Positions 48,475-52,879 of a stretch of DNA of 64,000 nt are shown one piece after another. The translations under genes were made by a program, and so were the position numbers. Each line of letters starts with the position of its first letter. The first letter of the stretch is position 1. This stretch comes from Cyanobium sp. Aljojuca 7A6 (lineage in GTDB: Bacteria > Cyanobacteriota > Cyanobacteriia > PCC-6307 > Cyanobiaceae), in NCBI RefSeq assembly GCF_024346455.1, contig NZ_JAGQCY010000008.1, positions 62,001-126,000 of the forward strand. The letters are read 5' to 3'. The notes beneath the pieces were generated by a model, which saw only the letters and a list, made by a program, of their open reading frames with translations, had not been told where the DNA came from and did no database searches.

Positions 48475-49206
48475 TTGGCTGCCGCCGATCACCTGCAGGC
48501 TCCCCGCCAGCACGGCCTGTTTCTGCACCATGGCATCGACCTGGGGGACGGCACGGTGGCCCACTATCTGGAGGGAAGGGAGATCCTGCGCAGCCCGCGG
48601 ACGGACTTCAGCCGGGGCGAGCCGATCAGCACCGTCGCCTACCCCGAGGGGAGTTGTTCCGCGGTGGGCGTCACCCTGCGGCGGGCCATGGGCCGCATCG
48701 GCGAGCAGCGCTACAACCTGCTGTTCAACAACTGTGAGCATTTCGCCCACTGGTGCAAGACCGGCCGGCACCGCAGCGCCCAGGTGGAGGACTGGCTGCA
48801 CACGGGCAGCCTCGGCGCCCTCGCCCTGGGCCAGTTCGTGCCCGCCGCCGTGCTGACCGGGGCACGGGTGCTGCTGCGCCAGGGCCAGTCCCTGGCGGAG
48901 ACCCTGGCCACCGGGCTGGATCCCGAGCAGCTGGCCCGGGGCCGGGACCTGGCCAGGCGCAGCCTGGAGCAGCTCGACGGGGTGCGGCAGTGGCTGCAGG
49001 CACGCCTGGAGGAGGAGCTGACCCGGGCCGAACGGCGCTGGGGCGACGGCCACGGGGCGATCACGACGGGTGGCGAGGGCTTTGAGCAACTGCGCCTCGC
49101 CGGGCAGAGCCTGGCCGACCAGCTGGCCGCGGTGGAGGAAATGGAAGACAGGCTGCAGCGCCTGCTGGAGCCGGGCGCCACCGAACAGGACGCGGATCAG
49201 TCGTAA
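48475..49206 (+). CDS. LRAT/NC-domain protein, putative acyltransferase or cysteine hydrolase
   Basis: About 243 residues. The N-terminal half has the LRAT pattern: LFLHHGIDLGDGTVAHYLEG (catalytic His19 and second His30) and NLLFNNCEHFAHWCKTG (catalytic Cys87 in the conserved NCEHF). The C-terminal half is helical with no clear domain (LARGRDLARRSLEQLDGVRQWL). LRAT-like proteins are thiol acyltransferases or hydrolases; the lipid substrate here is unknown. Starts with TTG at 48475, 104 bases after clpX. Its 3' end overlaps the sulfotransferase gene by 10 bases. Confidence 0.78.
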   Translation: MAAADHLQAPRQHGLFLHHGIDLGDGTVAHYLEGREILRSPRTDFSRGEPISTVAYPEGSCSAVGVTLRRAMGRIGEQRYNLLFNNCEHFAHWCKTGRHRSAQVEDWLHTGSLGALALGQFVPAAVLTGARVLLRQGQSLAETLATGLDPEQLARGRDLARRSLEQLDGVRQWLQARLEEELTRAERRWGDGHGAITTGGEGFEQLRLAGQSLADQLAAVEEMEDRLQRLLEPGATEQDADQS

Positions 49207-49916
49207 CCAAGCGTCGCGAAATCCACGGCCCAGAGCTCCCTGATCCGCGCTTCGGCCTCCGGTTCGAAAGCTTGGCTGGGCGGGAGGTGATCGGTCCGGT
49301 TCATATGGGGCAGGGTGATCGCCAGGCCGAGGCGGGAGCTGACGCTGTGGCAATCGGCCTCGAGGGTCTCGAACCGGCCGATGAAATCGACGATCACCTT
49401 CCCATCCGCATCGCAGACATAGGAGGTCTGCAGCAGGGTCGGGGCCATCGCCAGGCCCCGATACCGGCGCAGATACTCATGGAGATGGTTCACGTCCTCC
49501 ACCGTGTACCGCCGCCTGGCCGCGGGCGCTCCGGAACCCAGCACCGCCTGCAGCCGCGGAGCCGTCGCCACGGCCCGCCCCTGCTCAAGCCTGTGGAGCA
49601 ACCTGCGGAGCCGCCTGGGACGCCCAGCCGCCTGGGGAAGGCGGGCCCGAGGGGTCAGGTTGTAGGTGTACTGGGACGTGAACCAATCCAGGGGATGGCG
49701 CACAAAGACGAACTTGAAGCAGGAGTCCCAGATCTCCCTGGGCAGGAGCGAACGGAGGATGGCCGGCGGGATGTGCTTGTTGGCCCAGAGGCCCGTCAGA
49801 CCACCGTTGAGACCAAGGAGATCGGCGAATGGACCGAACTGATCTTCGATGGAGGTCGTTCCCGTTTTGCCGTTGGAGATAAAAATGAACCGCTTGCTAC
49901 GGGAGATGATCGCCAC
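49197..49916 (-). CDS. Sulfotransferase family protein
   Basis: About 239 residues. The 5'-phosphosulfate loop SNGKTGTTSIE (residues 14-24) and the 3'-phosphate region FVRHPLDWFTSQY (71-83) are PAPS-binding marks of carbohydrate sulfotransferases. The middle 95-140 is unusually Arg/Ala-rich (LPQAAGRPRRLRRLLHRLEQ), then VIVDFIGRFETLEAD is again family-like. It would sulfate a cell-surface glycan. Starts with GTG at 49916; divergent from the glycosyltransferase gene and sharing a 13-base upstream element with it. Confidence 0.8.
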   Translation of the reverse strand: MAIISRSKRFIFISNGKTGTTSIEDQFGPFADLLGLNGGLTGLWANKHIPPAILRSLLPREIWDSCFKFVFVRHPLDWFTSQYTYNLTPRARLPQAAGRPRRLRRLLHRLEQGRAVATAPRLQAVLGSGAPAARRRYTVEDVNHLHEYLRRYRGLAMAPTLLQTSYVCDADGKVIVDFIGRFETLEADCHSVSSRLGLAITLPHMNRTDHLPPSQAFEPEAEARIRELWAVDFATLGYD

Positions 49917-49946
49917 GGGGTGTTGTGTTCTCTGCCAAACTTGCCG

Positions 49947-50086
49947 TTCACCCTACATCCTTGAATGCGCACTTACGTCCATTCCATGCCTGGATCCTGA
50001 CGCCTCTTTCCAGCATCGGGCAGGGGCCAGCTACTTCGGGCAGCACTGAAGATCAAGCATGAATCAGAGACCTGATGTAGGGTGAA
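49947..50086. repeat. Shared 13-base element facing both divergent genes
   Basis: GATGTAGGGTGAA occurs on the minus strand at 49947-49959 (30 bases before the sulfotransferase GTG) and on the plus strand at 50074-50086 (23 bases before the glycosyltransferase GTG). The two copies form a perfect 13-base inverted repeat spaced by 114 bases. It includes a TAGGGT that could serve as -10. Nothing else gene-like is seen in the 193-base gap 49917-50109. Confidence 0.55.
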
Positions 50087-50109
50087 GGGACGTTCATCCT
50101 CAAGGATGC

Positions 50110-51048
50110 GTGAAGAATCTCATCATCACCTCTTCCTTCAACTATCACCCAAAGCAGCTTCTCCCTTTTCTCGAGTCAGCTCACCGCGCCTGCGGGTACG
50201 CCGATGTGGTGATGATCACCACATCGGCGGATGTGGGCCGCTATGGGGGACTCAGCGAACGGTATAGCAACCTGAGATTTTTCCTGATTCCTGAACGGAC
50301 ACCATCCCGACAGGCCGACGAGGTCACGTCTTTCCGCCAGGCCCGCAAGCTCCTGAAGACATACAAGCACATCACGATGTTGCTGCTCAAGAGCAAACTG
50401 GGGTTGAAGCCGATCATTCGCCGCCAGAGGCCGTCGCTGCTTGGTCTCAGCCTCATCAATGTCCATGTGTGCATCCGCCGGTATTTCGCCGCTCGCGATC
50501 TGCTGGCCGCCAGTGTCAATGAAGACATCGGCTCGGTTCTGCTGGCTGACGTGCGGGATGTGATCTTTCAGTCCGATCCCTTTGAACACGTCACCTCCGG
50601 ACGGTACACGGGCGACGAGATCCTCAAGGTCAAGGACTGCCCTTCCAATGCCATCTGGATCAAGGCGGCCTACGGAGACGACATCTACACCAGGCTCGCC
50701 GAAAAGGTCTCCGTCTGCTCCGGGGTTTCGCTCGGAACGCTGGCCCCCATGCAGGACTATCTCGAGGCCTTCTGCCAGGAAACCCTTCGGGTGATGCAGG
50801 ACAAGTGCCTGGACACCCTGCCGGTCTGGGACCAGGCCTTTCACATCAAGATGCTGCTGCTGGACCACTTTCCCTTCCAGACGGTGCCCTGGAATGGGTT
50901 TCTGGCCACCGTCGCCCAGGCGGAAGCTGAGCATCTGCGCGTGAATGCCGACGGGCTCGTCGAGGTGGATGGCCGGGTCCCGGCGATCCTGCATCAGTAC
51001 GACCGCCATCCGCCGATCCAGGAGCACATCCACGCCACCTACCGCTGA
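50110..51048 (+). CDS. Putative glycosyltransferase (nucleotide-diphospho-sugar transferase-like)
   Basis: About 312 residues. It begins KNLIITSSFNYHPKQLLPFLES. The metal-site segment LLADVRDVIFQSDPFEHV near residue 150 is typical of GT-A proteins of the DUF616/GT77-like kind, followed by VCSGVSLGTLAPMQDYLEAF and LDTLPVWDQAFHI. No membrane segment. GTG start at 50110 with AAGGA just upstream; a small CATCCT-CA-AGGATG palindrome (50095-50108) lies on the ribosome binding site. It likely adds a sugar to a surface glycan, with sulfation by the divergent gene. Confidence 0.7.
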   Translation: MKNLIITSSFNYHPKQLLPFLESAHRACGYADVVMITTSADVGRYGGLSERYSNLRFFLIPERTPSRQADEVTSFRQARKLLKTYKHITMLLLKSKLGLKPIIRRQRPSLLGLSLINVHVCIRRYFAARDLLAASVNEDIGSVLLADVRDVIFQSDPFEHVTSGRYTGDEILKVKDCPSNAIWIKAAYGDDIYTRLAEKVSVCSGVSLGTLAPMQDYLEAFCQETLRVMQDKCLDTLPVWDQAFHIKMLLLDHFPFQTVPWNGFLATVAQAEAEHLRVNADGLVEVDGRVPAILHQYDRHPPIQEHIHATYR

Positions 51049-51100
51049 TGCGGCCGACGGCGGCCCGCCTTAGGCTCCTCATCCGGTCAGGGCAGGGTGC

Positions 51101-52879
51101 ATGGTCCAGGCCTACGAGCCCCTTCATCACAAGTACCGGCCCCAGCGTTTCGACCAGCTGGTGGGTCAGAAGGCTGTCGCCGACACCCTCAGCCAGGCCC
51201 TGCTCCAGAACCGCATCGCCCCGGCCTATCTGTTCAGCGGCCCGCGGGGCACCGGCAAGACCTCCAGCGCCCGGATCCTGGCCCGTTCGCTCAACTGCCT
51301 GGCCAGCCCGGGCCCGACGCCGGAGCCCTGCGGACGCTGCCAGCTGTGCACCGATATCGCCGCCGGGAATGCCCTTGATGTGATCGAGATCGATGCCGCC
51401 TCCAACACCGGCGTCGACAACATCCGCGAACTGATCGAACGCTCCCGCTTCGCTCCGGTGCAGGCCCGCTGGAAGGTCTACGTGGTGGACGAGTGCCACA
51501 TGCTTTCCACCGCGGCCTTCAACGCCCTGCTCAAGACCCTGGAGGAACCGCCACCGCGGGTGGTGTTCGTGCTCGCCACCACGGATCCCCAACGGGTGCT
51601 GCCCACGATCCTGAGCCGCTGCCAGCGCTTCGATTTCCGTCGCATCCCCCTGAAGGCCCTGGAGGGCCATCTGCACTGGATCGCCGCCGAAGAGTCCATC
51701 GGCATCACCCCCGAGGCCCTGCACCTGGTGGCCCAGCGGTCCCAGGGGGGCCTGCGGGATGCTGAAAGCCTGCTCGACCAGCTGAGCCTGCTGCCAGCGC
51801 CGATCGCCGCTGACGCGGTGTGGGACCTGCTGGGGGCGGTACCGGACCAGGAGCTGCTGCGGCTGGCCGACGCCATGGCCGCGGCCGATCCCCTGCAGCT
51901 GGTGGAGGGCTGCCGCGAACTGCTGGACCGGGGGCGGGAACCGGCTGCCGTGCTCCAGGGACTGGTCAGCCTGCTGCGCGACCTGCTGCTGGCGGGGGTG
52001 GCACCGGACCGGCTGGAGCTCACCAGCGTGTCCCCGGAGCTGCGGCCGCAGCTGCCCGACGTGGCACGCCAGATCGGCAAGGCCCGCCTACTGCGCTGGC
52101 AGTCCCAGCTCAAGGGCAGCGAGCAGCAGCTGCGCCACAGCGTCCAACCGCGGCTCTGGCTGGAGGTGTTGCTGCTGGGCCTTCTCGCCGAACCGGCCCC
52201 CGTCGCCCCCTCTCCGACAGACCCGGTTCCGGCCAGAGCCGAGGTCCAGCGCTCAGTCCACAGCGTGGCGCCCGGGCCGGCGGAGGCGGAGCCACCGGCC
52301 GCCTCGGCGATGGCCTCGACGGCAGCCCCTGGCACGACCCCAGACGTGGCCCCGGTGGTGGCGGCGCCCTCCAACGACAACCTGGTGGAGCTGTGGCAAC
52401 AGATTCTGGCCGGCCTGGAACTGCCCTCCACCAGGATGCTGCTCTCCCAGCAGGCCCAGCTCCTGCGGCTGGACGATCGCCGCGCCGTGGTGCGGGTGGC
52501 CGGCACCTGGATGGCCATGGTTCAGAGCCGTCTGCCCCTGCTGGAGAAAGCCGTGGCCAGCGCGCTTGGAAGCCCGCGACAGCTGACGCTGGAAGCGGGG
52601 GGAGACGCCCCCGGCGCCCAGGCGCCCCCGGTCCCGGTCAGCCCGCCGGCCAGGCCAGCCCCTGCCGCCACAGCCCTCCCTGCGCCAGGGACCTCCATCA
52701 CCAGCCCCCCCGTGGCCGATCGCCACCCCCCCCCCCCGGCGGCTGGGGAACGACCCGACGAAGCCAGGGCGGCCGCGGCGGCCATGCCGGCAGCGATCGA
52801 TGCCCAGGCGAGTCGCCTGGCCGAATTCTTCAACGGTGAGGTGATCAGCGGCATCAACGGCGATGCCGAACTGCTCTGA
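51101..52879 (+). CDS. dnaX: DNA polymerase III subunit gamma/tau
   Basis: About 592 residues. Walker A GPRGTGKT is at residues 47-54, four zinc cysteines at 66, 77, 80 and 83 (CGRCQLC), VYVVDECHMLS as Walker B, and the sensor-1 VLATTDPQRVLPTILSRCQRF. The C-terminal third is Pro/Ala-rich, ending in a conserved helix (LAEFFNGEVISGI). A run of 12 C (52726-52737) lies in codons 542-546. No intein is present. ATPase of the clamp loader with holA. Confidence 0.95.
   Translation: MVQAYEPLHHKYRPQRFDQLVGQKAVADTLSQALLQNRIAPAYLFSGPRGTGKTSSARILARSLNCLASPGPTPEPCGRCQLCTDIAAGNALDVIEIDAASNTGVDNIRELIERSRFAPVQARWKVYVVDECHMLSTAAFNALLKTLEEPPPRVVFVLATTDPQRVLPTILSRCQRFDFRRIPLKALEGHLHWIAAEESIGITPEALHLVAQRSQGGLRDAESLLDQLSLLPAPIAADAVWDLLGAVPDQELLRLADAMAAADPLQLVEGCRELLDRGREPAAVLQGLVSLLRDLLLAGVAPDRLELTSVSPELRPQLPDVARQIGKARLLRWQSQLKGSEQQLRHSVQPRLWLEVLLLGLLAEPAPVAPSPTDPVPARAEVQRSVHSVAPGPAEAEPPAASAMASTAAPGTTPDVAPVVAAPSNDNLVELWQQILAGLELPSTRMLLSQQAQLLRLDDRRAVVRVAGTWMAMVQSRLPLLEKAVASALGSPRQLTLEAGGDAPGAQAPPVPVSPPARPAPAATALPAPGTSITSPPVADRHPPPPAAGERPDEARAAAAAMPAAIDAQASRLAEFFNGEVISGINGDAELL
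52726..52737 (+). repeat. C12 homopolymer inside dnaX
   Basis: Twelve consecutive C bases in the proline-rich part of dnaX. Both alternative frames stay open for about 100 bases past the run, stopping near 52840, so slippage by one base would give a protein of similar length with another tail. It could be a phase-variable or slippage site, or simply a sequencing-sensitive run. Confidence 0.6.

Follow-up and report, generated by a model that had tools for sequence, protein, structure and literature searches.

A perfect 13-base inverted repeat between divergent sulfotransferase and glycosyltransferase genes of a picocyanobacterium and the two outward-facing -10 elements it probably carries

Why would two divergent genes of a picocyanobacterium be preceded by the same 13 bases, in a perfect inverted repeat whose two copies each read toward their own gene? 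The repeat lies in the spacer between a sulfotransferase gene and a putative glycosyltransferase gene, within a stretch of 64,000 nt that was analysed as a whole (here, the window). An initial annotation of this DNA had suggested either a shared promoter core or a regulator site.

The inverted repeat and the two genes

The 13-mer GATGTAGGGTGAA is found at 49947 to 49959 on the minus strand and at 50074 to 50086 on the plus strand (identity 13/13). It ends 30 nt before the GTG start of the sulfotransferase gene (GTG at 49916) and 23 nt before that of the glycosyltransferase gene (GTG at 50110); the coordinates, orientations, and start distances in the initial annotation were all exact. Extended arms (49944 to 49959 and 50074 to 50089) match at 15/16 positions and have 114 nt between them. 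The features of the locus are as follows.

49197 to 49916, minus strand: sulfotransferase gene, GTG start (Pfam Sulfotransfer_2, E = 1.3e-05; orthologues 71% and 69% identical)
49917 to 50109, no strand: divergent spacer, 193 nt (19/114 columns between the arms invariant in three genomes; TGTAGnnT cores 7/8 and 6/8)
49947 to 49959, minus strand: 13-mer copy toward the sulfotransferase gene, holding TAGGGT (49950 to 49955), a predicted -10 hexamer at -39 from the GTG; TGTAGnnT kept in 2/2 relatives with the pair
50074 to 50086, plus strand: 13-mer copy toward the glycosyltransferase gene, holding TAGGGT (50078 to 50083), a predicted -10 hexamer at -32 from the GTG; GATGTAGnnT kept in 2/2 relatives with the pair
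50110 to 51048, plus strand: putative glycosyltransferase gene, GTG start, predicted GT-A-type fold

No Pfam or NCBIfam model matched the product of the glycosyltransferase gene. Its predicted structure (mean pLDDT 79.3; pTM 0.79) has as nearest solved folds in the PDB alpha-1,3-galactosyltransferase, ABO-type transferases, and the bacterial BoGT6a (Z of 17.9 and 17.6 at 3.3 and 3.6 Å over 220 and 218 residues). On this model the plus-strand gene likely encodes a glycosyltransferase, fold likeness being no proof of the reaction. Among the matches listed in literature searches on sulfotransferases, glycosyltransferases, and exopolysaccharides, nothing concerned this gene pair. Upstream in the window, between clpX and the pair, lies an LRAT-domain protein gene (PF04970, E = 1.7e-19; 48475 to 49206); the ends of this gene and of the sulfotransferase gene share 10 nt. 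Within the glycosyltransferase coding sequence, at 50199 to 50229, two 15-nt arms form a further perfect inverted repeat around a loop of 1 nt. Immediately before the glycosyltransferase GTG, at 50095 to 50109, stands CATCC-n4-GGATG, with identical arms and the loops TCAA, ATCC, and TTTC in three genomes; it was rejected as a leader hairpin, since of the three leaders only one had it in its minimum-energy RNA fold.

The initial annotation judged a chance origin of the repeat unlikely. For one spacer taken by itself this judgment stood: when the 193-nt spacer was dinucleotide-shuffled 20,000 times, 8 of the resulting sequences had perfectly matching inverted arms of at least 13 bases, a rate at which ~0.04 such repeats are expected over 88 divergent spacers. 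Those 88 spacers (40 to 600 nt) came from 790 kb of a genome four times larger, and the longest repeat among them was that of the sulfotransferase/glycosyltransferase spacer, with runners-up of 12 and 11. When many spacers are scanned, however, the match is not startling, and the same 790 kb held 26 exact 13-mer inverted pairs, 4 of them inside the window (loop of at least 20, start distance of at most 160; some pairs are overlapping parts of longer repeats). A 13-base repeat is rare for one given spacer and unremarkable over a genome with hundreds of spacers. Nevertheless, even two promoters seldom agree over a full 13 bases: with both sites taken as promoters and aligned on TAnnnT, 0 of 5,565 pairs of other promoter-like sites had a run of 13 in common and 1 had a run of 12. 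Another divergent spacer of the source genome, at ~161264 to 161414 of contig C1, holds the 12-nt inverted repeat GATCCTAGGCAG/CTGCCTAGGATC (locus L105 of genome G000), the right arm of which includes TAGGAT at -31 of the plus-strand start.

Conservation of the spacer in relatives with the pair

The divergent pair is also present in two congeners, Microcystis elabens FACHB-917 (G286) and Aphanothece cf. minutissima CCALA 015 (G217), so that the spacer comparison covers three genomes of one genus. Orthologue identity in the two relatives is 76% for the glycosyltransferase and 71% and 69% for the sulfotransferase. Searches with the glycosyltransferase gave a match in 7/300 genomes of the family and, within the genus, in 4/42 genomes, one of them distant (38%); the sulfotransferase was matched in 16/300 family genomes, mostly by partial and distant sequences.

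An exact search did not find GATGTAGGGTGAA at the locus of either relative with the pair (0/2), which is the absence that the initial annotation had named as telling against its proposals. Common to all six sites (three genomes by two sides) is the shorter TGTAGnnT. The site words are TGTAGGGT twice in the source genome, TGTAGGCT and TGTAGAGT in M. elabens, and TGTAGGGT and TGTAGGAT in A. cf. minutissima; the outer bases of the 13-mer (GA before, GAA after) are not retained on both sides in the relatives, and a repeats tool detected no inverted repeat of at least 9 in the spacer of either. Spacer length varies among the three genomes (193, 158, and 191 nt), yet the distance from TAG to the start codon is nearly fixed, the TAG beginning at -39, -39, and -38 before the sulfotransferase gene and at -32 before the glycosyltransferase gene in all three. 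The sole 8-nt windows of the alignment with 7/8 invariant columns start at 49949/49950 and 50073/50074, corresponding to the two elements. Conservation in this otherwise rapidly changing spacer is highest at the TGTAGnnT cores, and the comparison with close relatives that the initial annotation had proposed found them retained on both sides in 2/2 relatives.

Because the 13-mer shrinks to TGTAGnnT in the relatives, an ordinary divergent promoter pair is most likely, rather than a special shared switch. The bases that complete the perfect 13 (GA, GAA) are, from the aligned sites, best explained by coincidence or by some local event within the lineage. After this comparison, the striking perfect repeat reduces to a common -10 hexamer.

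The TAnnnT hexamer as a candidate -10 signal

TAnnnT is the -10 pattern of cyanobacteria, and TAGnnT conforms to it. For mapped transcription starts of Synechococcus elongatus PCC 7942, the published study describes a -10 motif, '--Ta-aaT', and no -35 motif (PMC3219970). The present locus resembles those promoters in having a TAnnnT-type hexamer 20 to 40 nt before the start codon, with no -35 found here; it differs in that the starts are predicted and in that TAGGGT is G-rich, fitting the ~66% G+C of the window. The hexamer reads TAGGGT on both sides in the source genome and TAGnnT at 6/6 sites of the three genomes, and the GGG within TAGGGT is far from the AT-rich consensus. A sigma-70 consensus scan needing both hexamers returned none in 49700 to 50300. 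Intrinsic terminators numbered 0 in the same interval, and an Rfam search of 49150 to 51150 gave no match up to an E value of 1.

The behaviour of the hexamer elsewhere in the genome was quantified over 790,322 bases with 687 genes called by a simple script of our own, the starts being approximate. The statistics used the 421 genes with at least 50 nt upstream, the sulfotransferase/glycosyltransferase pair being left out along with two short genome pieces (L095, 6,141 bases; L096, 1,309 bases). Starting at -40 to -21, TANNNT occurred 96 times in the forward and 24 times in the reverse orientation, and TAGNNT 33 and 5 times, respectively; elsewhere upstream the forward and reverse counts of both were about even. 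Between -45 and -20, TANNNT was present in 105/421 genes (shuffle mean of 56.2) and TAGNNT in 40/421 (shuffle mean of 18.0), and neither count was reached by any of 500 shuffles. In 316/421 called genes TANNNT was missing from that interval. The relatives gave a similar result over 171 genes, again leaving out the pair (TANNNT, 44 versus a mean of 19.4; TAGNNT, 22 versus a mean of 6.4; 0/500 shuffles each). The two TAGGGT sites of the pair, at -39 and -32, fall inside the enriched, strand-biased zone of -40 to -21.

The longer motif TGTAGNNT was not enriched before the genes of this genome (1/421; shuffle mean of 1.2) and was marginally enriched in the relatives (2/171; mean of 0.3; reached by 25/500 shuffles; the pair's own four sites left out). 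The lack of enrichment here ruled it out as a genome-wide extended -10, and a -10 alone therefore accounts for neither the shared TG nor the identity over 13 bases. A local comparison case is offered by the next gene, dnaX.

51071 to 51076, plus strand: TAGGCT, predicted -10 of dnaX (ATG at 51101), at -30

Of 30 dnaX loci from 42 genomes, 29 were examined after one short locus (L155) was skipped. TAGGCT stands at -29/-30 in 12/12 of the closest loci (L136 to L147); the other 17/29, which are more distant, have a different upstream sequence with no TAGGCT there, and one of them has TAACCT at -28.

These data point, with good probability, to two independent outward-facing -10 core promoters, one for each of the divergent genes. 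Each 13-mer would then carry its -10 hexamer as TAGGGT, of the TAnnnT form and without a recognizable -35. Each -10 would be melted by RNA polymerase carrying a housekeeping-type sigma factor, and with transcripts beginning ~7 nt downstream the leaders would measure some 20 to 30 nt. The two hexamers, 122 nt apart and pointing outward, would drive one gene each, and at that distance each would be a separate promoter. Promoter activity, start points, and sigma factor are what we infer here; the positions, their conservation, and the positional and strand bias can be read directly from the genomes. The promoter core proposed in the initial annotation is supported in this form, TGTAGnnT with its TAGnnT being kept on both sides in both relatives, at -38/-39 and -32, where the motif is enriched and strand specific. 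Likely core promoters can now be given for a gene pair with little other conservation in its spacer, and the pair's two promoters, so read, are ordinary ones.

Paired promoters of a tighter kind are known from Escherichia coli, in which the divergent starts of pseudo-symmetrical bidirectional promoters are most often 18 bp apart, with 10 and 23 bp also common (PMC12825309). Like such bidirectional prokaryotic promoters, the present locus has two -10 elements that face outward within a single intergenic region; it differs in that its hexamers are 122 nt apart, a distance that rests on predicted -10s. A pseudo-symmetrical bidirectional promoter was rejected, the predicted -10 hexamers being 122 nt apart against a start spacing of 10 to 23 bp.

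Competing explanations and the loss of the pair

The 13-mer could instead be an operator at which a single regulator controls the two genes in concert. The match is perfect on both sides, lies at similar start distances, and is rarer than promoters alone give, and the gene pair stays together in three genomes. As with divergent genes sharing an operator, one word precedes both genes and is oriented to each; however, here the word is unconserved in relatives and unique to the locus. Both relatives with the pair are without the 13-mer and keep TGTAGnnT alone, and the site overlaps the predicted -10. The genome search proposed in the initial annotation (3,131,121 bases, 34 contigs) returned just the two copies at up to 1 mismatch, so that no other gene of the genome carries the 13-mer and a regulon site was rejected. 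We consider an operator improbable, and the suggestion that a regulator site coordinates sulfation with glycosyl transfer is left unsupported by the same two observations, absence from both relatives and from every other gene at that stringency. With two mismatches the site shows a mild excess in this genome (23 sites versus 8 for a reversed control; 26 versus 15 and 23 versus 21 in the relatives), and a loose regulon may rest on such sites here. A related reading keeps the promoters and adds a cause for their likeness: the two sites, which have TGTAGnnT in common in all three genomes and match over 13 to 15 bases here, would be kept matched by template-switch copying, or by a regulator or distinct sigma factor that reads them both, with the enzymes made in step as a result. 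This, too, seems to us an unlikely account.

A functionless chance match at one or both sites would draw on the many spacers, windows, and genomes scanned, with ~0.04 such repeats expected per 88 divergent spacers. Against it, the cores are the spacer's most conserved stretches in three genomes, stand at a fixed distance from the start, and hold a motif enriched there genome-wide; chance alone is very unlikely to be the explanation. Still less credible is that the repeat serves as a structure, a cruciform or hairpin, or that one arm was copied onto the other by template switching. A DNA fold of 49940 to 50095 does pair the arms, and copying would account for their being identical in the source genome only, but the repeats-tool result in both relatives opposes either form, and three genomes are too few to demonstrate copying. 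Cruciform extrusion is unlikely with 114 nt between arms, and the cruciform was set aside as weak (energy z of -2.05; 7/200 shuffles folded equally well). With two -10 core promoters as the preferred reading, the run to 13 bases in this genome possibly reflects chance added to a shared core, arm copying, or a shared regulator, the match itself being the evidence for the latter two.

Nine close genomes (loci L137 to L143, L145, and L147) lack the pair and its spacer (~49175 to 51046, between the LRAT-domain gene and dnaX); in them the LRAT-domain gene runs nearly straight into the dnaX leader. Such a precise loss in relatives makes the pair a small variable module, which, from its enzyme classes, possibly decorates cell-surface glycans. 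At two of the nine loci, L141 and L142, scars of both genes are present: sequence matching the C-terminal end of the sulfotransferase (GYD) adjoins sequence matching that of the glycosyltransferase (RHPPIQEHVQATYR in L141 and IHATCR in L142). The pair must therefore once have been present in at least those two genomes and then been deleted, and judged by these end sequences it is a cassette lost by deletion, not gained, in at least two relatives.
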